DNA of 64,000 bases from Fibrisoma montanum. Lineage in GTDB: Bacteria > Bacteroidota > Bacteroidia > Cytophagales > Spirosomataceae. Of this stretch, positions 1,673 to 63,843 are shown in pieces. The notes beneath the pieces are model-generated. The model made no database searches, was not told where the DNA came from, and was given only the letters and a program-made list of their open reading frames with translations. The translations under genes and the position numbers were made by a program. The stretch is from NCBI RefSeq assembly GCF_003583365.1, contig NZ_QXED01000002.1, positions 868,001-932,000 of the forward strand. Reading direction: 5' to 3'. Within the stretch, counting starts at the first letter, position 1. Each line of letters starts with the position of its first letter.

Positions 1673-1713
1673 ACCGCGGGCGCTACCTCAATCACTGAGG
1701 TAGCGCCCGCGGT
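1673..1713 (-). terminator. Strong hairpin terminator after the M42 peptidase gene
   Basis: An 18-bp perfect stem (1673-1690 with 1696-1713) has a five-base loop. It lies 32 bases after the stop of the M42 peptidase gene, and on the minus strand a T-rich tract follows (GTTTTTACC). Confidence 0.8.
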
Positions 1714-10990: not shown

Positions 10991-11950
10991 ATGACTAACT
11001 TTATCTCCCTCGCTGACGTCGCTGACATCGACGCCCTCATCCAGTCCGGCCGCGAGGCCAAAGCCAACCCCTTCGCTGATCAGCACCTCGGCCACAACAA
11101 AACCATTGGTCTGATCTTTTTCAACTCCAGCCTCCGAACCCGGCTCAGTACCCAGAAAGCCGCCCAGAACCTCGGCCTGAACGTAATGGTCATGAACGTC
11201 GGTCAGGACAGCTGGGGACTCGAAATGGAAGACGGCACCATCATGAACGGCGATAAGGCGGAGCACGTCAAAGAAGCGGCCGCCGTGATGGGACGGTATT
11301 GCAACATCCTGGGTATCCGGGCGTTTGCGGGCCTGCTGGATCGCGACAAAGACTACAGCGAGCAGGTAATGAACCAGTTCAGGAAATACGCGGCCGTACC
11401 CATCATCAACCTCGAATCCGCGACGCGGCACCCCCTCCAGTCGCTGGCCGATTGCATAACCATCGAAGAGTTCAAGCCGGTGCCCCGCCCCAAAGTGGTC
11501 TTGACCTGGCTCCCCCATTTCAAGCCGCTGCCCCAGGCCGTGGCCAACTCGTTCAGCGAATGGATGAACCGGCGTGACGTCGACTTCGTGGTGACCCACC
11601 CGGCGGGCTACGATCTGGCACCGGAGTTTGTCGGCAACGCCCGGGTGACGCACAACCAGGATGAAGCCTTTGAAGGGGCGGATTTTATCTACGGCAAAAA
11701 CTGGTCATCGTATGTCCGCTACGGCAACGTGCTGACCCAGGACTCATCATGGATGGTAACGGGCGAGAAGATGAAGCTGACCAACAACGGTAAATTCATG
11801 CACTGCCTGCCCGTTCGCCGGAACGTAAAGGTGGCCGACGAAGTGCTGGATAGTCCGCAGTCGATTGTGATTGAACAGGCTGCCAACCGCGAGTGGTCCG
11901 CCCAGGCCGTATTGAAAGAAATTCTGAAAAATTTAGAAACGCAGAGGTAG
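10991..11950 (+). CDS. argF': N-succinylornithine (or N-acetylornithine) carbamoyltransferase
   Basis: It transfers a carbamoyl group to an N-acylated ornithine in the variant arginine pathway of Bacteroidota. The carbamoyl-phosphate motif is FNSSLRTRLSTQKAAQ (residues 44-59), and HCLPVRRNV near residue 272 is typical of the acylated-substrate enzymes rather than ordinary ArgF. Residue 90 is Ala in GDKAEHVKEA. From memory, the Bacteroides fragilis succinylornithine enzyme has Pro at this place and the Xanthomonas acetylornithine enzyme has Glu. Loss of the Glu favours succinylornithine, so I lean to succinylornithine. The last residues ETQR and the stop are supplied by a second CGCAGAG repeat. 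It lies between argD and argB. Confidence 0.9.
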   Translation: MTNFISLADVADIDALIQSGREAKANPFADQHLGHNKTIGLIFFNSSLRTRLSTQKAAQNLGLNVMVMNVGQDSWGLEMEDGTIMNGDKAEHVKEAAAVMGRYCNILGIRAFAGLLDRDKDYSEQVMNQFRKYAAVPIINLESATRHPLQSLADCITIEEFKPVPRPKVVLTWLPHFKPLPQAVANSFSEWMNRRDVDFVVTHPAGYDLAPEFVGNARVTHNQDEAFEGADFIYGKNWSSYVRYGNVLTQDSSWMVTGEKMKLTNNGKFMHCLPVRRNVKVADEVLDSPQSIVIEQAANREWSAQAVLKEILKNLETQR

Positions 11951-12020
11951 CAGAGAGTTACGCAGAGGACGCTGAGGTTTCTCTGTTTTCTCTGCGTAAC
12001 TCTCTGCTACCTCTGCGTTT
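11937..12020. repeat. Long hairpin of the CGCAGAG family without an enclosed gene
   Basis: Two 31-base arms (11937-11967 and 11990-12020) are perfect reverse complements, with a 22-base spacer. The words match those flanking the GxxExxY gene (AAACGCAGAGG, TTACGCAGAG). The left arm encodes the last residues and stop of the carbamoyltransferase, and the right arm ends six bases before the argB ATG. It looks like an empty derivative of the GxxExxY unit. Confidence 0.85.
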
Positions 12021-26098: not shown

Positions 26099-26914
26099 GT
26101 GAAAATTGACGTATATTCGTTCATGCGAATTGTCGGAATGGTGGTGGCTGTGTTAGTGGGCGGGGTCAACGTGGCTTCATCACAGGTTGTTCTGACCAGT
26201 TCAAACGAGCCAACCGTGTATGGGTACTGCCAACAGTTTCAGACACTTTATGTACAGATTCGGGAGCAGACCATAGAGCCTGACTCGGCCCGGGCGGTGT
26301 TCAGCAGCATCATGAAGGGGCTGCAGGAGCGGTTCCGTAGTCAGGAAGCAACCGTCTACGATAGTGTGCGCATTGATAGCCTGATGCGCAAAGGGGCGTA
26401 TTTTAATTTTCCTTTACGGGGCTATTCGCCCCGTTCCATCGGCGGTACGCACGGCGAAGGTTATCACGCCCGGGGCTTCGATCTGTTTGATTACAAAGTA
26501 CGGGGCAGTCATCCGGCGCAGGATATCTTCATTTACGACCGCAATCAGGATAACCTGGATGATAACACGAAAGCTCCGGTAGATGTGCTGGCCATGACGA
26601 GTGGCGTGGTGATCGGCATCGAAACAGGCTGGCTGCCGGGCAGTGAATACCGGGGCGGCAACTGGATCTGGATGTACGATCCGGCGCTGCACGGGCTGTT
26701 CTATTACGCCCACAACAACGCGGTGACCGTAGCGCCCGGTCAATGGGTGCAGGCCGGCGAAAAAATCGGTGAAATCGGTCGATCAGGCTTCAACGCCTAC
26801 AAGGCCCGCTCCGGTACGCACCTGCACCTGATGTACCTGCAAATTGGTGCGAACGGTCTCCCTCAGCCCCGCAATACCTACGAGTGGCTGCTGGCGGCCC
26901 GGCTGACGAAATAA
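26099..26914 (+). CDS. Secreted M23-family (LytM-like) peptidase
   Basis: A signal segment (MRIVGMVVAVLVGGVNVASSQ, from an ATG at 26123 or the GTG at 26099) precedes about 60 residues without obvious domains and then an M23 metallopeptidase domain. Zinc ligands are visible as H and D in GSHPAQDIF, and HxH in SGTHLHLMYLQIG. A helical, charged N-terminal region contains RAVFSSIMKGLQERFRSQ. Such proteins hydrolyse peptide bridges in peptidoglycan or act as activators of amidases. The stop codon region is copied 89 bases downstream next to the first of two hairpins. Confidence 0.85.
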   Translation: MKIDVYSFMRIVGMVVAVLVGGVNVASSQVVLTSSNEPTVYGYCQQFQTLYVQIREQTIEPDSARAVFSSIMKGLQERFRSQEATVYDSVRIDSLMRKGAYFNFPLRGYSPRSIGGTHGEGYHARGFDLFDYKVRGSHPAQDIFIYDRNQDNLDDNTKAPVDVLAMTSGVVIGIETGWLPGSEYRGGNWIWMYDPALHGLFYYAHNNAVTVAPGQWVQAGEKIGEIGRSGFNAYKARSGTHLHLMYLQIGANGLPQPRNTYEWLLAARLTK

Positions 26915-26918
26915 GCAG

Positions 26919-26976
26919 CGGTGCCGGAAACAGAGCTGTCAGACGTACCGTACAGACAGCTCTGTTTCCGGCACCG
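26919..26976. repeat. Hairpin A of a back-to-back pair, possible terminator of the M23 gene
   Basis: A 22-bp perfect stem (26919-26940 with 26955-26976) has a 14-base loop AGACGTACCGTACA and is followed by TTTT. The loop together with the six stem bases on either side is an exact reverse complement of the matching region of hairpin B. Confidence 0.85.
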
Positions 26977-27006
26977 TTTTCGGTCGACCGGCTGACGAAA
27001 TAAATA

Positions 27007-27066
27007 GCGGAGCATTTGCCGGGGCTGTCTGTACGGTACGTCTGACAGCCCCGGCAAATGCTCCGC
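27007..27066. repeat. Hairpin B of a back-to-back pair, same core inverted
   Basis: A 23-bp perfect stem (27007-27029 with 27044-27066) has a 14-base loop TGTACGGTACGTCT, the reverse complement of loop A. A copy of the M23 gene end CCGGCTGACGAAATAA lies just before it at 26988-27003; the original is at 26899-26914. Confidence 0.85.
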
Positions 27067-27082
27067 TTCGCGTCTAAGGTCG

Positions 27083-27289
27083 TTACAGGTCCCGAACCAG
27101 ATTCACACCCGTGATCAGGAAGATCATTCCGACGAAGAACGGAGCGGCCGCTTCGCCTTTACTAATGCTCATGCCCAGAACGGGTTTATTGTCAGAGAGG
27201 AAGGCAATGAGCGCAAACAGGACAACCGCTACGCCCAGAATGGTTAGCGAAGCCCCGAAAAAGCGTCGAAAATTCGTGTTGTTCTCCAT
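27083..27289 (-). CDS. Small two-helix membrane protein
   Basis: The 68-residue protein has two membrane segments: FFGASLTILGVAVVLFALIAF (residues 10-30) and APFFVGMIFLITGVNLV. It starts seven bases after the CCA-transferase stop on the same strand, so it is probably the third gene of that operon. No family recognised. Codon usage and short spacing support a real gene. Confidence 0.65.
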   Translation of the reverse strand: MENNTNFRRFFGASLTILGVAVVLFALIAFLSDNKPVLGMSISKGEAAAPFFVGMIFLITGVNLVRDL

Positions 27290-29383: not shown

Positions 29384-29587
29384 GGTTTAATAACCCGCAA
29401 AGATACGTCAGGTTTGGGCGCGGCCAATAAGTTCGTGTGGGTTCCCATGAGATTTTAGGGTAAGGTGCTCGTTCGATACGTTGACGATCAGCCGGCAAGC
29501 GGGGCCTTTCATTCATAATTTGATAACCTGATTCGCCACTTTCGACTGCGATCGACTCCGTATTTTTACTGAAAAGAGACACCCCTT

Positions 29588-30727
29588 ATGCTGTTTCTCG
29601 TTACTACCTTTGCGTTCGTACAGACGTGTGTTGTGCTGTATGTGTTGCCGCTGCGCAACACGCAGACCCGCAACTACCCGTACATAAAGGCGCTCCTGCT
29701 GCTGATCATCATTCATCTGGGCATCAAGCTGTTCCTGCTGGGCGTACTCAAAAACGGCTATCTGTTCAGCCGGCTGACGAGTTTCACTACGTTCAGTTAC
29801 GGGCCGCTGCTGTATTTTCAGTACCGTCAGCTGGTGGGGCGCTCGCTGAACTGGAAAATCCAGCTGCTCCACCTCATCCCGTTTCTGGCGGCTTTTGGGC
29901 TGTACACCTTCTGCGTGATTACCCAGCTGCCGATTCAAAAACCGGTAGTATTCGAGTCTATGTTTGCCTGGTACGCCAATGGGGTGCTGGTGTCGCTGAT
30001 CGGGTACAGTAGCTACATGATCTGGCTACTCCGTCGTCCGGCGGCCGTTCCGAAAGACGATCAGCGATTCCTGCTTCAGATCAGCGGGTTGCTGATTGCG
30101 GTGGTTCTGAGCGGCATGATCATCAAGGAGGTAAGTGGGACCCTGGGTTACGACTACGATCCGCATTTCATGGCGTATATCATGCTGGGTCTGGTGTCGT
30201 ACCGGTGCCTGCGTTTCTTCTTTATCCAGTCGGCTGCGACTCCTGCCGGGCAACCCGATGACGCCGTAAGCCAGGACGTTACAGAGAATCAGGTCAACAA
30301 GGACGGTATTACGTACGAAAAATCGGGCTTGTCGACTCAGCAGGTCGACGCTTTATTCGACACCATGGAGCAGTTCATGCAACGGGACAAGCCGTATCTG
30401 GAGCCGGAACTGTCCCTCGACGAGCTGGCCGCTCGCTTGAAGTCGACCCGGCAGCACGTATCGCAGGTCCTGAATCAGAAAGCCCGAAAAAATTTTTACG
30501 CGTACGTGAACGAGTACCGGGTTTATGAAATGATTCAACTGATGAAGCAGCGCCCCGACGGTCGGATTCTGGAGCTGGCGTTTCAGGCCGGCTTCCAGTC
30601 GAAGACAACCCTGAACTCGTATTTCAAAAAAGTGACTGGATTCAATCCCACCGAGTACCAGCAGGCCCTGAGCGGCAACACGGCGCTGGCAAGACTTAAC
30701 AATAACGTAACATTGGCAAAAGGCTGA
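29588..30727 (+). CDS. AraC-family regulator with N-terminal membrane domain
   Basis: The first 220 residues carry about seven hydrophobic helices (LFLVTTFAFVQTCVVLYVLP, ALLLLIIIHLGIKLFLLGVL and others). After a linker, residues 265-370 form an AraC/XylS DNA-binding domain (LDELAARLKSTRQHVSQVLN and ILELAFQAGFQSKTTLNSYF). Membrane-bound AraC proteins are common in Bacteroidota and probably sense signals at the inner membrane (inference). The gene lies just upstream of a TonB-dependent receptor, separated by a terminator, so the receptor/phosphatase genes are possible targets. Confidence 0.9.
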   Translation: MLFLVTTFAFVQTCVVLYVLPLRNTQTRNYPYIKALLLLIIIHLGIKLFLLGVLKNGYLFSRLTSFTTFSYGPLLYFQYRQLVGRSLNWKIQLLHLIPFLAAFGLYTFCVITQLPIQKPVVFESMFAWYANGVLVSLIGYSSYMIWLLRRPAAVPKDDQRFLLQISGLLIAVVLSGMIIKEVSGTLGYDYDPHFMAYIMLGLVSYRCLRFFFIQSAATPAGQPDDAVSQDVTENQVNKDGITYEKSGLSTQQVDALFDTMEQFMQRDKPYLEPELSLDELAARLKSTRQHVSQVLNQKARKNFYAYVNEYRVYEMIQLMKQRPDGRILELAFQAGFQSKTTLNSYFKKVTGFNPTEYQQALSGNTALARLNNNVTLAKG

Positions 30728-30754
30728 TAATCAGCAATCGATTGTCGTTTAGAC

Positions 30755-30806
30755 GACCCAGCCGAACGGCGCGAACCTCGCCGTTCGGCTGGGTCGATCT
30801 GTTTTT
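30755..30806 (+). terminator. Strong hairpin terminator after the AraC gene
   Basis: A 17-bp perfect stem (30755-30771 with 30779-30795) has a seven-base loop and is followed by GATCTGTTTTT. It separates the regulator from the TonB receptor gene. Confidence 0.85.
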
Positions 30807-30850
30807 GGCCGCGCTCTACCTTCGCCCCGAAGTATTAACCAATCACAATC

Positions 30851-33766
30851 ATGTCTTTTGCAAAACGAATGCTGGTACTCTGTTGCTGGTTGCTGACCCT
30901 GGGGTTGCCGCAGTGGGTTGCGTTCGGTCAGGCTGTTGAACGGGCTACGTTGACCGGTCGTATCGAAGATGCCAACGGGGTTCTGCCCAGCGCTACCGTT
31001 CTCGTTAAAAACACAACGCTGGGTGCTGCTGCCGACCTGAACGGGGCTTTTCAACTGCCGAACGTACCGGTTGGCCCCCAAACGCTGCTGGTCCGCTTTA
31101 TCGGGTATAAAACCCTGGAAGTTCCCGTGGAGGTGAAGCCGGGCGTTAATCCGCTGCCGACTATCAAACTATCGGCGGAGGGTACGCAGCTCGCCGATGT
31201 TATCGTGAAAGGAACCATGGCCGCGTCGCAGATCAAGGCCATGAACATCAAGCGGAATTCGCTGGCAATCATCGACGTACTGGCTTCAGATGCCATCGGT
31301 AAACTGCCGGACCGCAACGCGGCCGAGGCCGTGCAGCGGATGCCGGGCGTGGCGGTGGCCCGCTACCACGGCGAGGCCGATCAGGCTACGGTTCGGGGAT
31401 TGCCTTTCGCCTGGACATCGACGCTGTTCAACGGTACCCGGATGCCGAGCGCCAACGTTGGCGGGTCGCGCAACGCGGTGCTGGATGCGGTGCCGTCGGA
31501 AATCATTGAGTACGTTCAGGTAGCCAAGGCGCTGACGCCCGATATGGAAGGCGACGCCATCGGGGGCTCGATCAACTTCGTGACCCGCACGGCCCCCGAG
31601 TTCCGGAAGTTGAGTGTCAGCGCGGCCGGTGGGTACAACAACTTCTCGAAGGATGGTACCTACAACGGCTCGATCGTGTACGGCGGCCGCTTTTTCGATG
31701 GCAAGCTGGGCGTGATGCTGTCGGCGGCCGTCTGGGATCGGCGCTGGGGAACGGATCAGTACACAATAGCCTACAATACCGGTGCCACGAACCCGCAGCA
31801 GCAGGTGGCCATCAACAGCCTGCTCCTGAAGCGGTACATGGGGAAGCGGCAAACCTACGGCCTCAACGCCGGGCTGGAGTATCGGTTCAATGCCGGTAAC
31901 CGAATCTACGGACGGGCGCTGCATGATAAGTTCAACGACATCCGGCCGGTGTACGAAACCTACTTTCTGTTCAGTTCGAACGAATACCAGCTCAATTTCC
32001 GGGATTCGTTCTACGAGACAACCATCGACGGCTACGAGATTGGTGGCGAACACCAGCTATCGAAGCGCCTGAAAATCGACTGGCTGGCGTCGGATTACCT
32101 GACGGAGTATGTAATCGACAATACGCCCTCGACAACGGACCCCAATAAACGGGGTCTGCCCATTGCCACTTTCCGGCAGAGGCTGTCGAAAGGATTCGGC
32201 GGGTTGTCGTCGGACGGCAAAAAGTACCTGAAATTCGACGCGCCGGACGGTATCGGCGACGACCCACTGGCCATTATGCCGCGCCTGAACGATCCGGTAG
32301 CCGATGCCATCGACCCGACAAAGCTAACCCTGCGGCAACTGGTGATTCTGCAACTGGGCGTGAAAGAGCAGGATCAGGTTGGGCAGGTAAACCTTAAATT
32401 CGACGTATCGCCGAAGTTCTCGCTGAAAGTAGGGGGTAAGTACCGCCATAAAGACCGGAGCGGACGTAGCACGAGTGGCGCTCTGGTGTATCTGCCGAGC
32501 GCGGCTCTGGGCATCCCGAATTCACCCCCGCTGGTGCCGCTGAGTCAGTTGCAGCGCGAATCGTTTCCGCTGCGGGGTGGTTTCTTTCAGGAAATCGGTA
32601 GTCCGTACAATGGATACGCCGTCGACAACATTACCCAGGATCAGCTGGCGCAGTTGTTTTCCCCCTCGTTTCAAACCGCCAACGGTTTCCGCGATGTAAC
32701 GCCGGCTTCATTCCCGACCACGTATTCGGAGGGGGTTGAAAACGTTATGGCGGGCTACGTAATGGGCGAGTGGAACGCAACGAGCAAACTGAAAGTCTTC
32801 GGGGGCGTTCGCGACGAATACACATCGCTGCGGGTGAGCGGTTCGTCGTACCGGCGCGAAAACCGGACCGTCGAAGGAAGACCGACCGCCGTCGATGTGA
32901 TTACGCCCGTCACGGTTTCGAACGACTACCACGCCATCCTGCCAATGGTTCACGTCAAGTACGCCCTGAACCCAAAGGCCAATCTGCGGGCGGCTTATAC
33001 CCGGACGTTTATCCGGCCCCTGTTCACGGATCTGGTGCCCACCGAAAGCGTGAACCTGACGAGCAATCCCGTGACGATCACGCGGGGGAATCCGGACCTG
33101 CGGCCGACGTTTGCGAGCAACTACGACCTGATGGGAGAATATTATTTCGACAACATCGGTCTGCTGTCGGGTGGATTGTTTTACAAGAACATTACCGACG
33201 TAGTGTTTCAGGATCGTTCCGTGGCGCTCGAAGGTGGCATCACCACAATCACCTCGCAGCCCCGCAACATGCGCTCGGCTAAACTGATGGGGCTGGAAGT
33301 CGCCCTGACGCGTCGGTTTACGTTCCTGCCCGGCTTCCTGGGTGGTTTTGGGGTTGAGCTGAACTACACCCATACCGACTCGGAGGTGGAGGTACCGCGG
33401 CCCGTCGGCAGCGACGTAATGATGGATAAAACCTCACTGCCGCAGCAGTCGAAGCACCTGTTCAATACCATCCTGTTCTACGAACGCAATGGCCTGACGG
33501 CCCGACTGGCGGGTAATTTCCGGGGACGGTCGGTAGAGGCCATCAGCCAGCAGCTCGGTCCGCGGCTCTACACCTGGACCGACGACAACTTTACGGTCGA
33601 TTTTTCAGCCGCGTACACCATCAGTAAGCAGATCCGGGTCTTCCTGGAAATCAACAACCTGACCAACGAACCGATTCGCCAGTACCTCGGCGACCGGCGC
33701 CGGCTGGTCGACTCGGAGTGGTATTCGCAGCGGGGACAGGCCGGTATTCGCTGGGATATTTTCTAA
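30851..33766 (+). CDS. TonB-dependent outer-membrane receptor with CarboxypepD_reg-like domain
   Basis: The 971-residue protein has a signal peptide (residues 1-25, ending WVAFGQ) and a CarboxypepD_reg-like domain at about 30-115 (LTGRIEDANGVLPSATVLVK). The TonB plug domain contains AEAVQRMPGVAVARYHGEAD and DAIGGSINFVTRTAPE. The rest is a 22-strand barrel ending QAGIRWDIF with the terminal aromatic residue needed for barrel assembly. No SusD partner follows, so it is a stand-alone TonB receptor, of the type often used for siderophores or phosphorus- and iron-containing compounds. The downstream gene is a secreted cysteine phosphatase, which suggests a phosphorylated or metal-chelated ligand. 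Confidence 0.93.
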   Translation: MSFAKRMLVLCCWLLTLGLPQWVAFGQAVERATLTGRIEDANGVLPSATVLVKNTTLGAAADLNGAFQLPNVPVGPQTLLVRFIGYKTLEVPVEVKPGVNPLPTIKLSAEGTQLADVIVKGTMAASQIKAMNIKRNSLAIIDVLASDAIGKLPDRNAAEAVQRMPGVAVARYHGEADQATVRGLPFAWTSTLFNGTRMPSANVGGSRNAVLDAVPSEIIEYVQVAKALTPDMEGDAIGGSINFVTRTAPEFRKLSVSAAGGYNNFSKDGTYNGSIVYGGRFFDGKLGVMLSAAVWDRRWGTDQYTIAYNTGATNPQQQVAINSLLLKRYMGKRQTYGLNAGLEYRFNAGNRIYGRALHDKFNDIRPVYETYFLFSSNEYQLNFRDSFYETTIDGYEIGGEHQLSKRLKIDWLASDYLTEYVIDNTPSTTDPNKRGLPIATFRQRLSKGFGGLSSDGKKYLKFDAPDGIGDDPLAIMPRLNDPVADAIDPTKLTLRQLVILQLGVKEQDQVGQVNLKFDVSPKFSLKVGGKYRHKDRSGRSTSGALVYLPSAALGIPNSPPLVPLSQLQRESFPLRGGFFQEIGSPYNGYAVDNITQDQLAQLFSPSFQTANGFRDVTPASFPTTYSEGVENVMAGYVMGEWNATSKLKVFGGVRDEYTSLRVSGSSYRRENRTVEGRPTAVDVITPVTVSNDYHAILPMVHVKYALNPKANLRAAYTRTFIRPLFTDLVPTESVNLTSNPVTITRGNPDLRPTFASNYDLMGEYYFDNIGLLSGGLFYKNITDVVFQDRSVALEGGITTITSQPRNMRSAKLMGLEVALTRRFTFLPGFLGGFGVELNYTHTDSEVEVPRPVGSDVMMDKTSLPQQSKHLFNTILFYERNGLTARLAGNFRGRSVEAISQQLGPRLYTWTDDNFTVDFSAAYTISKQIRVFLEINNLTNEPIRQYLGDRRRLVDSEWYSQRGQAGIRWDIF

Positions 33767-33821
33767 GTAGCTAATCAGGAACAGCATTCATTGAAACTCA
33801 TAGTTAAAGACATACGAACGC

Positions 33822-34634
33822 ATGAAATTTATCATCTTCTTTCTGTTACCAACGCTGACATTTGCTCAGGATACACTGGTCTACAACACTAAACGGGCCG
33901 TAAAACTGGAAGGCACCAGCAACTTCCGCGATCTGGGTGGCTACCCGACTCAAAATGGCAAGACGGTCAAATGGGGGCATATCTACCGCTCGGCCGACAT
34001 CAGCCGCCTGACCGACAGCGATCTGAAAACGCTTGAAACTCTTCATTTAGGCGTCGACTGCGATCTGCGCGGTCCCGATGAGGTGAAAAACGGGCCCGAC
34101 CGGCTTCCGGCGGGGGTTCAATACGTGAATTTGCCAGCAGGAAGCGAAAACATCCGCATGAGCGAGATGGGTAAGATGATGCGCAACCCGGCCCTGCGCG
34201 ATTCGCTGATGGGGGCTTCCTACGGCCAGACAACCCACCTGAAAGCCAAGTATAAGCCCATGTTCGACCAGTTGCTCAGCCTCGATAATAACAAAGCGCT
34301 GCTGTTTCACTGCACGGCCGGGAAAGACCGGACCGGCGTAGGCGCTGCGCTGATCTTATCGGCGCTGGGCGTTCCGCGGGACATTATTCTGAAGGATTAC
34401 GAAGCTACCAACGAGTACTGGAAAGCCGATCGCGAACGGATGATGAAGATGATGGCCCAACAGGGTATGCCCGAAGACCAGCTACGTCCCATGATGGCCG
34501 CCAATCCGGTCTATCTGGAACAAACCTTCAAAGCAATTGACCAGACGTACGGTTCCATGGACAAGTTTCTGGCGCAGGAAATGGAACTGACTACCGAAAA
34601 ACTGGCCACCCTCCGGACGAAGTATTTGAATTAA
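33822..34634 (+). CDS. Secreted tyrosine/inositol-type cysteine phosphatase
   Basis: The 270-residue protein has a signal peptide (residues 1-15, cleavage after FAQ) and a PTP-type P-loop HCTAGKDR (C164, R170). The NFRDLGGYPTQNGKTV start is shared with bacterial DSP/PTP-like phosphatases of the Y_phosphatase3 group. D84 or D86 in RGPDEV may act as the general acid. The protein should act outside the cytoplasm on phosphoesters. It follows the TonB receptor after 55 bases, so both may be one transcription unit. A phosphatase on a phytate-like or phospholipid substrate is possible, but the phytase subgroup motif cannot be confirmed. Confidence 0.9.
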   Translation: MKFIIFFLLPTLTFAQDTLVYNTKRAVKLEGTSNFRDLGGYPTQNGKTVKWGHIYRSADISRLTDSDLKTLETLHLGVDCDLRGPDEVKNGPDRLPAGVQYVNLPAGSENIRMSEMGKMMRNPALRDSLMGASYGQTTHLKAKYKPMFDQLLSLDNNKALLFHCTAGKDRTGVGAALILSALGVPRDIILKDYEATNEYWKADRERMMKMMAQQGMPEDQLRPMMAANPVYLEQTFKAIDQTYGSMDKFLAQEMELTTEKLATLRTKYLN

Positions 34635-34744
34635 CGTAAGGCCCGTGGAGTAAACGTGTACCGTAATGAATGCCAGGTATGCGGGATAAATTCATCCTGC
34701 CTGGGACTACATCACCCGGCTGACACGTTGACCATACCGTACGT

Positions 34745-34787
34745 AACGCCTTCTGTTCCTGGACGTAGCCGGGCAGAAGGCGTTTTG
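34745..34787 (+). terminator. Terminator downstream of the phosphatase gene
   Basis: AACGCCTTCTG (34745-34755) pairs with CAGAAGGCGTT (34774-34784), followed by TTGGTTT. An additional imperfect stem (CCAGG/CCTGG) lies upstream at 34672-34703. Confidence 0.65.
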
Positions 34788-34911
34788 GTTTGATTCGGCT
34801 GCTGATATTTTCAACAGGTCCGGAATGAAAACTGGCCAGAAAAGACGAATTACCAGGGAGATTCAGCAAAGCGGTATAATCCGCTTCTATCTACACCAAG
34901 CCATCAGACTC

Positions 34912-36021
34912 ATGCGTTCTACGTTATTCATCGCCCTGGCGACGGTCGGTTTTTTATGGAACTGCCGTCCGACTGCCCAACAACCCACTCCCGAAACATC
35001 CGCTCCCGACTCCTGGCGTCAACTGGCCGACGTTCCGGCCGGGAAACCGCTGCTGATGGCAGCACTGAACGGCAAAATCTACATTGGAACGAGTGCCAAT
35101 ACGGAGGTATCAAAGCAGGATATACTTGCAAAACTCTGGGAGTTTGATCCTGCCGACCGGCGGCTAACTGCCAGACAGGACTTTACGGGCCAGCCCGTCC
35201 GTGACTTTACTTACTTCACGCAGGGCGGCAAACTGTTCGTAGGTCTGGGGCAGGGCGATGGTACGTCAGGGTTGATCTATGGCTATTCCCCGGATTTCTT
35301 TGCGTACGATCCGCAGCAGAACGCGTGGCAAAATATAGCTTCGGTGCAGAAAAGTGGCGTCCCGAACGTGCTGATTGGCGCCAGGGCCAACGGCCTGAAT
35401 TTCCGCGACCGGGGGCTGGTACTGCACGGTACGTATAAAGCGAATACGCCTACTACGTTCGAAAACAGCGGTGGAGCCACTTACAGGCCGGCCGACGGCT
35501 GGAAGCCGGTTACCGAAAAACTGTTCGGAACAACGCCCTACCCAACTGAACCGGCGAGCCTGGTTCAGTATAACCAGGCATACGTAGAAACAACCCACTG
35601 GGGTGGTTTTGCCTGTACGCTTAACGACCGGATTTATATTGGTGGCGGTAGTCTGCCGTCGCCCTCTCGTTGGGGTGGCTATCAACCCAGTCAGGATTAT
35701 ACAACGTACCTGGGCAGCCGGATCATGTGGGAGTATACCGTACCGGAACCTGACGCGCCGACCGGCCTGACGATGGTGCTGAACGCCAGACTTGAAACCC
35801 CTTCCGGCGATTATAACCTGTCGGGCAGCCGCGAAAGCTTTGCGTTGAAGAATAAGCTCTACATCATAACCCTGGCGGGCGACGTACTGACGTTCGACGG
35901 GGCTACCAAACGCTGGGATAAGCTGACCAACCTGCCGGGACCTGTGCTGGCCGGCGTGGCGCTGGGCGAAAAAGCGTATTTTCTGACGGCCAACGCTATA
36001 GTTGACTATACCCCAAAGTGA
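34912..36021 (+). CDS. Lipoprotein with Kelch-like beta-propeller
   Basis: From the ATG at 34912 the protein has a signal sequence ending near FLWNC, a lipobox-like site with an unusual Asn before the Cys. The mature part repeats beta-propeller blades (WRQLADVPAGKPLLMAALNG, LWEFDPADRRLTARQDFT, KLYIITLAGDVLTFDGATKR), in the manner of Kelch or galactose-oxidase-like propellers. No catalytic residue is apparent. The first ATG at 34825 would put 29 residues before the signal segment, so it is less likely. It is downstream of the TonB/phosphatase pair, which is the only clue to function. Confidence 0.75.
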   Translation: MRSTLFIALATVGFLWNCRPTAQQPTPETSAPDSWRQLADVPAGKPLLMAALNGKIYIGTSANTEVSKQDILAKLWEFDPADRRLTARQDFTGQPVRDFTYFTQGGKLFVGLGQGDGTSGLIYGYSPDFFAYDPQQNAWQNIASVQKSGVPNVLIGARANGLNFRDRGLVLHGTYKANTPTTFENSGGATYRPADGWKPVTEKLFGTTPYPTEPASLVQYNQAYVETTHWGGFACTLNDRIYIGGGSLPSPSRWGGYQPSQDYTTYLGSRIMWEYTVPEPDAPTGLTMVLNARLETPSGDYNLSGSRESFALKNKLYIITLAGDVLTFDGATKRWDKLTNLPGPVLAGVALGEKAYFLTANAIVDYTPK

Positions 36022-36089
36022 CCATTGGGTCAGGTAACGGATCGGTGACGCTCCGTTTGCTTTTACCGCCAGAATCGCCCTGGCCCTGA

Positions 36090-37757
36090 TTAATCGGCCG
36101 GAAGGTATACCGTCATGGTTGTGCCTTCACCTACCTGACTGTGAACGGCGATTGTTCCGCCATGATTCTCCGCCACCTTCTTACAGATCGCCAGTCCCAT
36201 ACCCGTCCCTTCGTACTGCCTTCGGTTGTGGAGCCGCTGAAAGAGCTGAAAGATTCGTTCGCTGTATTTTTCGTCCAGTCCGATGCCGTTGTCCGCCACG
36301 ACCAGTGCGTAGTAGGGCCGATGGTTGTGCAACGAAACGGTGGTGGGTAGCTGACCGGCCGAAACCATCGTTGACAGTACCTTGATGGCGGGTAACCGGT
36401 CGGTATGGGCAAATTTAAGGGCGTTCGACAGCAGGTTCTGGAACAACTGCCGGAGTTGAAGCGGATCGCCGGGCAAGGTTGGCAGCGGCTCTATACTGAT
36501 GCTGGCCTGTTTATCGGAGATAGTAACTTCCAGGTCGCTCAGGACATCGGTCAGGATCTGGTTCAGATCAAGAGGGCGCAGGCTCTGGGGGCGGGTAGTC
36601 AGGCGGGAAAACGTCAGCAGATCTTTGACCAGATGCTGCATTCGGTTCGCCGAATTCTGCATCCGGTGCAGCACGTCGGCGCCCGATGCGTCGAGCTGGG
36701 TACTGTACTGAGCCAGCAGCACATCGCCGAATGCCTGGATTTTCCGCAGAGGCTCCTGCAGATCGTGCGACGCAATGTAAGCAAACTGGCTTAATTCCGT
36801 ATTACTGCGGTTCAGTTCGCGGATACTCGATTCCAGTTCGCGCTGGTACTTCTCCAGTTGCTGTTTGGCATATTTCAGCTCTTTGTTGTCGGATAGGGTT
36901 TGCTCGATGAGTTTTTGGGCGTGGATGTTTACGATAATGCCCGTCCATTGGGGTTCGTGCGTTGCCGTATCCGTTGTTACCCAGACCATGTGCCACAGGT
37001 AGTCGTCGGTAGTGGCTTCCTTCAGCCGCAGTTCATACTGAAACGGCCGGCCGGCCGGTGTGGCCGCTGCCCAGACCGCCCGAACCCGGTCAAAATCGTC
37101 TTCATGGGTGATGGACTGCCACTTCGTCTGGTTCAGGGTTTTGATGGACTGACCGGTATAATGGATCAACCGCTCATTGGCATACGTCAGTCTGCCGTCG
37201 ACATCCGCGGTGAAAATCATCACCGGCAACGAATCCGTGAGCGACCGGTAATGTTGCTCACTTTCGCGAAGCCGTTCCGATAACTCCAGGAGCTGCGCAT
37301 TTTTCCGCTTGATCTCGTCGTAGGGAGACACGGGCGGCTCGCTCACAAACTGTTTACTCCATTGCTCGGCCCGTGCCGAACTGATCTTGCGGTTGTTGTG
37401 CAGATGGCAGCGCAGCGTGATCTGCGACCCTTTGGCGGTGTCCGTAATGAGCAAATCGTTAACGAGCCGACGCGCGTATTCAAAGGCTTCGTCGTCGTGA
37501 TTGCTGATGAAAAAGCGGCCCCTGGCAATCTGGGCCACCAGGCTCTGAACCGATTCGTTACTATCGGTAATGTATAGCGTCAGGCAGGCGTCCAGACCGC
37601 GCTCAATGGCGTAGCGGGATACTTCAGAAACTGCGGTAGCAAACGTAGTCTGGGCCGCCAGCGACAATCCGGCCAGTTCGGCCAGTCTCATACTGCGTTT
37701 ATTCGCCAGAATGAGGTCCATTTCATTGTGAAGCGTGACGCTGGCTATTTCGTGCAT
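36090..37757 (-). CDS. PAS-domain sensor histidine kinase with a degenerate RsbT-like N-terminal domain
   Basis: The 555-residue last gene of the stressosome operon has three parts. Residues 1-130 resemble the N-terminal half of RsbT (ASVTLHNEMDLILANKRSMR), but the RsbT N-box ELARN is replaced by EVSRY, so ATP binding there is probably lost. Residues 168-290 form a PAS fold (LPVMIFTADVDGRLTYANER). The kinase core follows: H-box FAYIASHDLQEPL, N-box LLSNALKFAH, G1 DNGIGL, G2 GTGMGLAICK. No transmembrane segment is seen, so it is cytosolic. It could receive the signal from RsbT directly; no response regulator gene lies in the window. Confidence 0.9.
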   Translation of the reverse strand: MHEIASVTLHNEMDLILANKRSMRLAELAGLSLAAQTTFATAVSEVSRYAIERGLDACLTLYITDSNESVQSLVAQIARGRFFISNHDDEAFEYARRLVNDLLITDTAKGSQITLRCHLHNNRKISSARAEQWSKQFVSEPPVSPYDEIKRKNAQLLELSERLRESEQHYRSLTDSLPVMIFTADVDGRLTYANERLIHYTGQSIKTLNQTKWQSITHEDDFDRVRAVWAAATPAGRPFQYELRLKEATTDDYLWHMVWVTTDTATHEPQWTGIIVNIHAQKLIEQTLSDNKELKYAKQQLEKYQRELESSIRELNRSNTELSQFAYIASHDLQEPLRKIQAFGDVLLAQYSTQLDASGADVLHRMQNSANRMQHLVKDLLTFSRLTTRPQSLRPLDLNQILTDVLSDLEVTISDKQASISIEPLPTLPGDPLQLRQLFQNLLSNALKFAHTDRLPAIKVLSTMVSAGQLPTTVSLHNHRPYYALVVADNGIGLDEKYSERIFQLFQRLHNRRQYEGTGMGLAICKKVAENHGGTIAVHSQVGEGTTMTVYLPAD

Positions 37758-37758
37758 A

Positions 37759-38784
37759 TCAGGGGGTGAGCCGACCGACCACTATCGATACATCATCGGT
37801 CTGTCGGGCGTTATCTTTATAAATGGCTGCTGCCAGTATGGTCAAATCGTACTTGAAAATATACGGATATTTGGTGGCATCCCACCGCGACTGAATACCG
37901 TCGGAGCACATAACTATCGTCTGACCCCATTCGGCCGGAATGGTCTCATCGTGCAACGTAGGCATCACCGTTCCGATGATGCCACTGTAGGGCAGATGGC
38001 TTTTCTGGACCACGGTGGCTTGTAGCAATCGGGTCATGATGTTGCCAACCCCGCACCAGAGCCATTGCTGCTGTCGGTGGTCGTATACGACCACCGACCC
38101 CACCAGGCCCCGCGTTTTACGAACGCCTTCGTGAATCAGCTCAATCAACCGGGCCGGGCTGCGCAACCGCGTATTGGGCAGCGTACCGATGGCTTGCGTC
38201 ACAGCCTCATGAGCCGCCGGACCATGACCTAATCCATCGCCCAGAAACAGGGTACCATAATCCGGTGTGATGCTTACCCGGCAACCGTCGCCACAAACCG
38301 TTTCGCCGGGCTTAGCGACCAGGACTGAACGGACCGTCAGCGGAAAAGCCGGATTATCACTTCTGGAATGAGTCACTGGATTGTCATAGAGTCGGGCGAG
38401 TAAAATGGTCCCCCAGTCGAGTAGTGAATACAGTTGAAAAAAATCGGCTAACCGCTGAATCGCTCCCAGGCCATGACCCAGGGTTTTGGTGGTTGAAACG
38501 CCGTCTTTCTGCATGTTTTCAGGATCGGCAATGCCAGGTCCGTTGTCAATACTAATCAACTCAATCCCGCGGGTATTGTTCTCCTGAAACAGCCGGACCA
38601 GGACTTCGCCCGTTTTGGCGTGCTTGAGCAAATTCGACGTCATCTCTAACACAATGATGTCTAACTCGCTCAGCCGGCGCGCACTGAATCCGGCTTCCTT
38701 GGCCAGATAATGCACTTCCCGTTTGACAAAAGCCTGGTAGCTACGATCCGACACCGTAAAGCGAAAATGGGGCGCATTAGTCAT
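37759..38784 (-). CDS. RsbT-like kinase domain fused to an RsbX/SpoIIE-type phosphatase
   Basis: The first 135 residues form a GHKL kinase domain (EMTSNLLKHA, DNGPGI, GHGLGAI). Residues 150-341 form a PP2C-type (RsbX/SpoIIE) phosphatase with metal-binding acidic residues in VCGDGCRV, FLGDGLGHG and CSDGIQSRW. In the known stressosome RsbX dephosphorylates RsbR and RsbS to reset the complex; here the phosphatase comes with its own kinase-like part. Its start overlaps the stop of the RsbT gene by four bases (ATGA), and the histidine kinase begins one base after its stop. Confidence 0.92.
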   Translation of the reverse strand: MTNAPHFRFTVSDRSYQAFVKREVHYLAKEAGFSARRLSELDIIVLEMTSNLLKHAKTGEVLVRLFQENNTRGIELISIDNGPGIADPENMQKDGVSTTKTLGHGLGAIQRLADFFQLYSLLDWGTILLARLYDNPVTHSRSDNPAFPLTVRSVLVAKPGETVCGDGCRVSITPDYGTLFLGDGLGHGPAAHEAVTQAIGTLPNTRLRSPARLIELIHEGVRKTRGLVGSVVVYDHRQQQWLWCGVGNIMTRLLQATVVQKSHLPYSGIIGTVMPTLHDETIPAEWGQTIVMCSDGIQSRWDATKYPYIFKYDLTILAAAIYKDNARQTDDVSIVVGRLTP

Positions 38785-39194
38785 AATTTCCAGGTGATTA
38801 CCGTAACGGTCGTGCCTTTGCCCACCGTACTGATTATCGCAAACTCGTTGACGAGTCGCCGGGCACCCGGCAATCCAAGACCGAGGCTTTGGGGGTTAGT
38901 CGTGTAGCCGTCCTGCATGGCCAGGTCAACATCGGGAATGCCTGGTCCGTGATCGATGAACGTTAGTCGAATCCCGACTTTTGTTCCCTGGCTGATCTGT
39001 TCAAGATAGGAAACGCCCTCATTTGCGTAGAAGAGCATATTACGGGCCAGTTCGCTGGCGGCCGTCATCAATTTTGTCTGGCTAACGGTGCCTAATCCAG
39101 TGTCTGCCGCAACCGCTTTGATGCGGTGCAGGAGCCGGGCTACATCCTGTTCGGTACGAATGCTGGCTGTTTCACTACTGGAAATAATAATCAT
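38781..39194 (-). CDS. rsbT: RsbT-like serine kinase
   Basis: The 137-residue GHKL-type serine/threonine kinase phosphorylates RsbS and RsbR in stressosomes. Motifs are the N-box ELARNMLFYA, G1 DHGPGIPD, and G2 LGLGLPGARRLVNEF. Its length equals that of RsbT. The start ATG at 39194 (MIIISSSETAS) overlaps the end of the rsbS gene by 20 bases, which suggests translational coupling; the frame upstream of that ATG is rsbS sequence in another register. The release target in this organism is likely a downstream partner such as the histidine kinase in the same operon. Confidence 0.93.
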   Translation of the reverse strand: MIIISSSETASIRTEQDVARLLHRIKAVAADTGLGTVSQTKLMTAASELARNMLFYANEGVSYLEQISQGTKVGIRLTFIDHGPGIPDVDLAMQDGYTTNPQSLGLGLPGARRLVNEFAIISTVGKGTTVTVITWKL

Positions 39195-39570
39195 CGTCTG
39201 TCTCCTCGTCGTCAGGGGGGATGGTTGCTCGTAGCTTTTCAATCCCCTTTTCAACGTTGAGGGCAGTATGAATACCTTTTAACGGTAAACCCAGTTCAAT
39301 CAGCGTAATAGCAACGGCCGGTTGCATACCGACCACCACCGTTTGGGCATCCAGAATCCGCGACATCCCCGCGATGTTGCCCAGGATCCGGCCCATGAAC
39401 GAATCGACGATGGAAACCGCCGAAATATCAATCAGCACACCTCTGGCACCGGTTTTATGCACCGTTTCGATCAGATCGGCTTCCAGGTTTAAGGCCAGCC
39501 GGTCGTAGAGGTCGACCTGAATGGTTACCAGCAGGAAGGGGCCCATCCGTAGAATAGGAATTTTTTCCAT
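39175..39570 (-). CDS. rsbS: RsbS-like STAS-domain scaffold protein
   Basis: The 131-residue single STAS domain contains the phosphoacceptor S57 in LIDISAVSIVDSFMG, matching the Ser59 region of Bacillus subtilis RsbS from memory. An acidic tail (IPPDDEETDDDYYFQ) extends past the domain. In stressosomes RsbS and RsbR build the core of the particle and hold RsbT until stress. It starts 11 bases after the RsbR stop. Confidence 0.93.
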   Translation of the reverse strand: MEKIPILRMGPFLLVTIQVDLYDRLALNLEADLIETVHKTGARGVLIDISAVSIVDSFMGRILGNIAGMSRILDAQTVVVGMQPAVAITLIELGLPLKGIHTALNVEKGIEKLRATIPPDDEETDDDYYFQ

Positions 39571-39581
39571 GGAGCCGTTAA

Positions 39582-40448
39582 TTACGCTGACCGGAGGTCT
39601 CTGTCCTGTTTACGCACGACGAGCCGAAGCATACCGAAGGCATGCTGGAGTGCTTTGGCCAGCGACGCTTTCGTGACAATATTCGAGAGGTCGATCCCGA
39701 GGTGAATAACAATCTGAGCGATTTCGGGCCGGATGCCACTGATAATGCATTCGGCGCCCATCAGCCGCGTGGCGCTGACGGTCTTGATCAGGTGCTGAGC
39801 TACCCGCGTATCAACCGTCGGAACGCCGGATATATCCAGAATGGCGATGCTGCTGCCCGTTTCGACAATGGCCTGCAGGAGGTTCTCCATCACCACCTGC
39901 GTTCGGGCGCTATCGAGGGTACCGATCAGGGGCATGGCCACAATGCCGTCCCAAACCTGAATGACGGGCGTCGAAATGTCGGTGATCTCGCTGGTCTGGC
40001 GACTGATTATATCCTCACGACCTTTAATGTAGGTCTCAAACGTAGATACGGAAAAGTTGTCGATTAGCTTACTGATTTTCATCGTGAGGTCGTGTAGCCG
40101 CACCGGGTCATCGGCTAACTCGCTCTGCAAAACGTCGAGCAGGGTGTCCTTCAGACTCAGTACGAACATGCCCGTTTCGCGGGGGGTAAATCCCTGCCGG
40201 GCGCGGGAGATGGAAATGCCCGCTAAAAGATCACTCAGGTTTTGAAAATCAGTTGATTGTGGATTGGTTATGTTTTTTTCGCTGAGTACATCCGTAAGTG
40301 CGTCTATTACTTCTTCCGACTGCGCCCGTAGTTCGTCGCTGCTCATGAGGTCGTCGCGCAGATCGCTGCTGGCCAGTTGGTTTTGTATCCATTGTTCAAG
40401 CAGGCGCTTTTTCTGGCGTCGCAGCAAATCTGAAAGGTAGTGTTCCAT
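39582..40448 (-). CDS. rsbR: RsbR-like stressosome protein
   Basis: The 288-residue protein has an N-terminal helical RsbRD-type domain (residues 1-150, MEHYLSDLLRRQKKRLLEQW) and a C-terminal STAS domain. Phosphorylation sites can be placed by spacing: S180 in GTLDS and T214 in TVDT correspond to Thr171 and Thr205 of B. subtilis RsbRA (residue correspondence from memory). No globin or other known sensor fold is evident in the N-terminal part. It is the first gene of the operon, followed by rsbS, rsbT, the RsbT-RsbX fusion and a histidine kinase. Confidence 0.92.
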   Translation of the reverse strand: MEHYLSDLLRRQKKRLLEQWIQNQLASSDLRDDLMSSDELRAQSEEVIDALTDVLSEKNITNPQSTDFQNLSDLLAGISISRARQGFTPRETGMFVLSLKDTLLDVLQSELADDPVRLHDLTMKISKLIDNFSVSTFETYIKGREDIISRQTSEITDISTPVIQVWDGIVAMPLIGTLDSARTQVVMENLLQAIVETGSSIAILDISGVPTVDTRVAQHLIKTVSATRLMGAECIISGIRPEIAQIVIHLGIDLSNIVTKASLAKALQHAFGMLRLVVRKQDRDLRSA

Positions 40449-40807
40449 GAAGTTCCTTACTGAGCAAAAAATGTGAATGCAGCGTTAATTACGCAATTTC
40501 GACGGTAGACGGCTGGTATCGTTTACGAAGTTATTCCGAAAGATAAGGGTTTTGCCGTAAAGCCATTACTATAGATAGATGATATACTATAAAAACAGCA
40601 TAAGTTAATCTACCAACCCCGGCTGGCTTTATCAGGCCGGCCAGCCTGCCGTAATCCGGAGCGTCCGGTATCGCGCCAAGGCACCGGGCTTTTTAATTCA
40701 GCCCTGCCGTGTAATCACAGCCGCCGTAGTGCATCGGTCGGGTTGATCGGCGGAGAACAATCCTTCTCGGCACTACGTTATCAAGCCGTACGTAGTAGTA
40801 GATACAC
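40449..40807. other. Intergenic region upstream of the stressosome operon
   Basis: 359 bases without a convincing reading frame. It must hold the promoter of the minus-strand stressosome operon and of the plus-strand DUF2905 gene. A GGCTGGC/GCCAGCC hairpin lies at about 40620-40646, and a TATCTTTC element on the minus strand (about 40541-40548) partly matches the -7 consensus. No operator-like palindrome was seen. Confidence 0.5.
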
Positions 40808-45610: not shown

Positions 45611-45741
45611 GACGGACGGACCATCGACAGACGTGACGTCTCTGGGCAGGGATCATCTTGCCACAAACCACCGTCTGACGGCACGTCTGACGATGATCCG
45701 ATGAGCCAGATAGCGTAGAAGTTCTGGTCGGTGGTCCGTCA
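45611..45741. repeat. Large imperfect inverted repeat between convergent genes
   Basis: GACGGACCATCGAC (from about 45615) pairs with GTCGGTGGTCCGTC (45727-45740) with one mismatch. Inside are GATCATC/GATGATC arms (45651-45657 and 45692-45698), the near-palindrome AGACGTGACGTCT and two copies of CGTCTGACG. The right arm covers the stop codon of the minus-strand PLP enzyme gene. Confidence 0.65.

Positions 45742-62094: not shown

Positions 62095-63843
<1,749 letters not shown>

Follow-up and report, generated by a model that had tools for sequence, protein, structure and literature searches.

REPs are imperfect palindromes of 20-40 bp that occur in many copies, mainly outside genes, and two inverted REPs that together form one larger hairpin make up a REPIN or BIME. 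GTAG and CGTC REPs carry a terminal unpaired tag, and some lie inside longer palindromes with a common consensus, such as GTAG-15 of A. variabilis and CGTC-1 of H. neapolitanus (PMC3733652). In the E. coli REP (group 2), unpaired bases in the middle of the stem are required for cleavage by TnpA_REP (PMC8266576). The motif YIH[QN]NP marks TnpA_REP subclass 2.6, or RAYT group 5, whose Bacteroidetes enzymes are flanked by atypical structures that lack GT[AG]G (PMC6006769). Template switching is also documented in hairpins, where it leaves multiple compensatory changes as well as inverted loops (PMC8794818).

The hairpins described here lie in a stretch of 64,000 nucleotides, hereafter the window, from the 7.8-Mb genome of Fibrisoma montanum (Spirosomataceae). 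For comparison we used the sister species Fibrisoma limi BUZ 3, which brings the Fibrisoma genomes to two. A first-pass annotation of the window had singled out two adjacent hairpins, A and B, that share an inverted core and follow a gene whose end is copied between them. The observation holds and extends beyond these two hairpins: they belong to a REP-like family, and A and B are most simply read as copies from a local duplication, the loop of one of them flipped. The features of the window are as follows, with types 1 and 2 as defined below.

26099-26914, plus strand: M23 peptidase-like gene (ORF of 271 aa; ortholog in F. limi, locus L128), with its 3' end within the duplicated unit
26899-26987, plus strand: upstream copy of the apparent 89-bp tandem duplication (gene end, hairpin A and a short tail); direct repeat at a spacing of 89, single copy in F. 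limi
26919-26976, no strand: hairpin A (type 1), a 22-bp perfect stem with a 14-nt loop in plus orientation
26938-26957, plus strand: conserved tip unit of hairpin A, GTC[AGACGTACCGTACA]GAC, with exact copies elsewhere all at hairpin tips
26988-27076, plus strand: downstream copy of the apparent 89-bp duplication (non-coding copy of the gene end, and hairpin B), from the direct repeat and the F. limi comparison
26988-27003, plus strand: copied gene end CCGGCTGACGAAATAA, 16/16 identical
27006-27067, no strand: hairpin B (type 1), a 24-bp perfect stem with the loop in minus orientation, orthologous to the single F. limi hairpin (L128 2518-2579)
27027-27046, minus strand: conserved tip unit of hairpin B, the reverse complement of the hairpin A tip
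45673-45691, minus strand: single type 2 unit GTCAGACGTGCCGTCAGAC between two convergent genes, the only further family member found in the window

Hairpin A consists of perfect 22-bp arms (26919-26940 and 26955-26976) around the loop AGACGTACCGTACA (26941-26954), and hairpin B of perfect 24-bp arms (27006-27029 and 27044-27067) around a loop (27030-27043) that is the exact reverse complement of the A loop. Both stand as annotated, except that B is one pair longer. The inverted core was borne out at 26/26 positions (26935-26960 versus 27024-27049), as was the repeat of the gene end (26899-26914 and 26988-27003) at a distance of 89 bases; the direct repeat reaches 26 nt at 88% and runs into the hairpin. 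Shuffled window sequence gives an expectation of 0 for the core word, and the RNA fold of 26890-27090 has a z of -13; the hairpins and their core are therefore not a product of chance.

The outer arms had been called unrelated, and this proved wrong. In an ungapped alignment anchored at the tip, the two stems have 14 identical pairs out of 24; 9 further pairs are Watson-Crick in both hairpins with both bases changed, and 1 has changed on one side. The compensatory changes include a run of 6 (chance 0.02). The loops are perfectly inverted relative to each other, with 0 mismatches over 14 bases.

The orthologous site in F. limi is 84-87% identical and holds one hairpin only, with its loop oriented as in B. 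Between the B stem and the F. limi stem we found 4 consecutive compensatory pairs (chance 0.003) and 2 one-sided changes. Since F. limi has a single hairpin in the orientation of B, parsimony suggests that the ancestor carried one hairpin, that an 89-bp tandem duplication in the F. montanum lineage copied it along with the final 16 bases of the M23 gene, and that the A loop was inverted afterwards. All 16 bases of the copied gene end are unchanged, whereas the two stems differ at 9/24 pairs (p = 0.0005 under equal rates), so the stems have changed faster than their flank. Farther along the window, about 11 kb (29465-40776) have no counterpart at the matching place in F. limi, probably as a result of an insertion or a deletion.

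The core recurs elsewhere in the genome and in the relative, in both orientations; it is not the unique, single-orientation sequence that would have spoken against the first-pass annotation. A 12-base part of it, GTCAGACGTACC, has 57 copies in the F. montanum genome and 58 in F. limi (about 0.9 expected; reversed control, 0). The full loop has 8 exact copies in the genome, all at hairpin tips and most with perfect stems, while loop matches with 1 mismatch are not hairpins. Two types can be distinguished. Type 1, with about 14 members, A and B among them, has GTC[AGACGTNCNGTRCA]GAC capping a 12-34 bp stem that no other site shares. Type 2, GGTCAGACGTACCGTCAGACC, makes up the majority (about 80 units; the 21-mer is found 83 times in each species within 2 mismatches). 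A type 2 unit alone folds as a hairpin with one A.A mismatch, and units typically form inverted pairs 9-30 nt apart, in the manner of a REPIN or BIME.

Stem pairing is a general property of type 1. When 18 type 1 hairpins were aligned without gaps, 96.6% of cells were paired (shuffles, 54%; slid alignments, 31-40%) and 18 of the 21 pairs showed double-sided changes; paired cells, two-sided changed cells and the covariation score were all far above the shuffled and slid controls. Copies of the family lie mostly between predicted genes and some lie inside ORFs, gene contexts here being those of a crude ORF selection. Type 1 hairpins occur singly at L094, L096 and L097. Five of them crowd a divergent intergenic region in both species (L006 4908-5332 and L124 2688-3123), in mixed loop orientations; the neighboring genes, esterase-like and SPFH-like by eye, are about 90% identical, and the stems are largely different. 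An epimerase-like gene on the minus strand (L099 1536-2696) contains two in-frame type 2 units that encode the peptide NASDVPSDAGKSLTADAGRSSTNASDVPSDE.

In its size, copy number (the 12-mer is present 57 times, and the 21-mer 83 times with up to 2 mismatches), internal mismatch in the fold and mostly extragenic placement, the family has the properties of a REP. By inspection, neither foot of the listed copies bears a terminal unpaired GTAG or CGTC tag, and the family is thus neither a GTAG nor a CGTC REP. The two-REP architecture of REPINs and BIMEs is found in type 2 only, as two inverted 21-mers with 9-30 nt spacers; A and B by themselves do not form it, and type 1 is mostly a conserved tip on variable arms rather than a conserved-arm doublet. 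As in the E. coli REP, there are unpaired bases in the middle of the stem (AG/ACA in type 1, A.A in type 2), but the Fibrisoma tip has no 5' GTAG and has a long extra stem. The tip resembles GTAG-15 and CGTC-1 in lying within a longer palindrome; unlike the host palindromes of those REPs, each Fibrisoma stem is unique to its site. The atypical REPs of group 5 are likewise short imperfect palindromes without GT[AG]G beside a RAYT gene (NHxH, YIHQNP), with copies elsewhere in the genome, a likeness drawn from the published description; the Fibrisoma palindrome differs in capping locus-specific stems of 12-34 bp. The tip is best read as an untagged REP-like repeat of Spirosomataceae, 20-22 bases long (GGTC-AG-ACG-TNC-CGT-ACA-GACC).

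Wider searches returned little else. When the tip pattern was searched in all GTDB r220 species, Fibrisoma and Emticicia/Cytophagaceae MAGs aside, only scattered single matches on 3-4 bp stems appeared; matches in viral contigs were likewise scattered and on 3-4 bp stems, and we attribute both sets to chance because they are single and their stems so short. Three further genomes (G077, G165 and G122) gave covariance-model matches whose tips differ; these hairpins are probably unrelated. Rfam gave no window match at the gathering score, and its permissive matches were generic hairpins. A literature search on Fibrisoma repeats found nothing relevant. The sequence between distant inverted type 2 copies (L098, L099), examined as a possible autonomous element, contains only ordinary genes.

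Of the family loci whose flanks were retrieved, nearly all occur in both Fibrisoma species, so that orthologous hairpins can be compared directly. Their stems range from 20/24 pairs in common down to barely any, with pairing mostly kept, and the compensatory changes between hairpins occur in runs. At two loci (L084_2/L125_2 and L095_2/L127_2) the loop is inverted between the species, and stem and flanks can still be aligned. At two others (L094/L126 and L096/L129) the stems are so divergent that replacement and rewriting look the same. Long perfect hairpins that lack the tip are common: 864 kb contain 67 with a score of at least 14, 3 of which are type 1. Because such tipless hairpins are common and some turn over between species, a long stem is not specific to the tip family; stem rewriting is probably general, and the tip makes it visible. 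Tipless hairpins with entirely different stems in the two species were seen at window 1673-1713 versus F. limi C10:170270-170332, and at a corresponding intergenic site, L006 3588-3637 versus L124 1326-1405.

Blocks of compensatory change and loop inversion within one hairpin, here seen between relatives, are the described footprint of template switching (PMC8794818), and from them we infer, indirectly, that this mechanism acted on the family. A replication fork that meets a long hairpin would allow the nascent strand to switch template inside the palindrome. Copying of the arms onto each other would then give compensatory changes together with perfect pairing, and a switch that spans the whole hairpin, followed by re-entry in reverse, would leave the loop inverted. 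In the window, the 89-bp duplication would have been followed by inversion of the loop in copy A and by rewriting of several of its stem pairs. The published evidence consulted concerns mainly short loops (typically 4 nt, some 7-8) in rRNA genes (PMC8794818), whereas here 14-nt loops are inverted, in intergenic DNA and at several loci. These loci, in two species, offer a directly readable record of apparent template switching at bacterial palindromes. With a constant tip that reverses direction and stems that are rewritten pair by pair, the family is also a good natural case for studying how hairpins evolve and what enzyme acts on them. We regard as fairly probable a combined account in which a REP-like tip family was spread by a RAYT-type enzyme, its stems were rewritten and its loops inverted by template switching, and A and B arose by duplication.

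Several other readings of the same sequences were weighed. If the hairpins were bidirectional terminators or stabilizers of mRNA 3' ends, their compensatory changes would reflect ordinary selection for pairing. The strong covariation agrees with this, as do the location of A and B between convergent genes, the TTTT after A, the ATTTATTT after B on the minus strand and the terminator-like form of some copies in the second genus described below (e.g., AAAAGCCATGAGGTC...GACCTCATGGCTTTT). Among the features of intrinsic terminators, A and B have a GC stem, a 14-nt loop and weak T tracts, and a scan restricted to loops of 3-8 called no terminator at either hairpin. The five type 1 hairpins of L006/L124 lie in a divergent promoter region in both species, and selection on RNA leaves unexplained both a conserved 14-nt tip in either orientation and double changes that come in blocks with loop inversion; we consider such a role rather unlikely. 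The proposal that the A and B loops pair with each other within one transcript, as a kissing regulator, starts from their complementarity at 14/14 positions. That complementarity follows automatically once a loop is inverted inside its hairpin. The orthologous F. limi site has one hairpin only, many hairpins are single (L094, L096 and L097 among them), cluster orientations are mixed, and the predicted fold pairs each loop internally, through an inner stem ACG-TAC-CGT. The loop-loop pairing of the first-pass annotation thus finds no support: the complementarity most likely arose incidentally when a loop flipped, and a regulator of this kind is scarcely credible.

The remaining alternatives concern DNA. 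Hairpin A might have been inserted separately beside B with a 16-bp target duplication, dispensing with tandem duplication and inversion, and the direct repeat does bracket hairpin A as a target-site duplication would. The homology of the two units enters the stems at identical length, however (14/24 pairs common), and weak homology continues past the hairpins (TTCG-GTC-A / TTCGCGTCTA), which makes independent insertions unlikely. The inverted core had also been proposed as a possible product of recombination or inversion. Inversion fits, with F. limi in the B orientation and two further orthologous loops flipped; recombination between the A and B cores does not, since it would mix the arms, and the arms still match within each hairpin. 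The same objection weighs on a site-specific switch in which the tip is a recombinase site subject to regulated inversion, even though a short conserved core does occur in both orientations and loops are flipped between orthologs. No recombinase gene was noticed beside the copies in an informal look, and to our knowledge the 14-nt loop of one hairpin is too short for synapsis by known invertases. We judge a recombination switch highly unlikely. Finally, the tip might be a protein recognition element that actively drives the rewriting: a single-strand transposase or polymerase at the tip would prime arm-to-arm copying, so that the tip makes and keeps the perfect stem and flips with each round. 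We give this idea little credence.

The combined account of transposase-borne spread and template switching draws its transposase part from a second genus, g9, which is probably Emticicia. Here the tip occurs as the variant GGTCAGACCTNCGGTRCAGACC, mostly on stems of 4-9 bp. At positions 5 and 9 of the tip loop, 25 Fibrisoma copies have G-C (or G-T), and 15 of 19 g9 copies have C-G. This swap supports an inner stem, ACS-TNC-SGT, and an interior in which AG and ACA stay unpaired; a DNA fold gives the same inner stem with the same bases unpaired. In one g9 genome, G100, 3 of the 4 tip matches fall within 800 bp, on both sides of an ORF of 151 aa (L243 1671-2126). Its product has NHFH and YIHQNP motifs, the former against a published motif of NH[LIV]H, and matches NCBIfam REP_Tyr_transpos at an E of 5e-12, below the curated cut-off. 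By a motif-based assignment, copies of the tip thus flank a group 5 RAYT gene, and the segment (L243 1408-2200; G100:C1:89907-90699), a RAYT gene bracketed by tip variants, is an apparent REPtron of this poorly described group. Because the tip is related to REP-like hairpins that flank a g9 RAYT gene, we infer that the family was probably disseminated by a RAYT-type single-strand transposase. The tip variant beside this gene provides a concrete candidate enzyme and substrate for this RAYT group, whose REPs have so far simply been called atypical.

G100:C1 was the sole case of its kind; none of some 15 other Y1/RAYT-like loci checked in g9 genomes had flanking tips. RAYT genes of the same type at two other g9 loci are accompanied by a different short palindrome, CCGTGACACGC/GCGTGCCACGG (L235 1021-1047 and 1838-1862; L242 2127-2168), which would fit a separate REP for each enzyme. 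In the F. montanum genome, a PF01797 search did not show a group 5 RAYT, though this profile would probably overlook one (it gives the g9 protein an E of only 0.0013), and tblastn found none in 864 kb (11% of the genome). The sole PF01797 match in the genome is a different RAYT, without a flanking motif. A Y1 transposase present in both Fibrisoma genomes (L117/L118) was rejected as an obvious driver, because it is an orthologous single-copy gene with no family copy in its flanks and its homologs, in 50 of 222 genomes of the taxonomic family, are mostly in genomes without the repeat and do not track the tip.

Palindromes outside the tip family were also recorded. Two regions of the F. montanum genome (G000:C35:1-400000 and C11:200001-600000) are unusually hairpin-rich, with about one long perfect hairpin (score of at least 14) per 13 kb, and a 33-bp stem with a 3-nt loop lies at C11:465979. 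A second repeated hairpin family has GTTTGTGGTTTGTAGTTTG-type arms and unrelated loops (window 62097-62168; L089, L097, and G000:C35:109423 and 393513). The window further contains a near-perfect 40-bp palindrome with a 4-nt center at 11937-12020 (AAACGCAGAGGTAGCAGAGAGTTACGCAGAG...).
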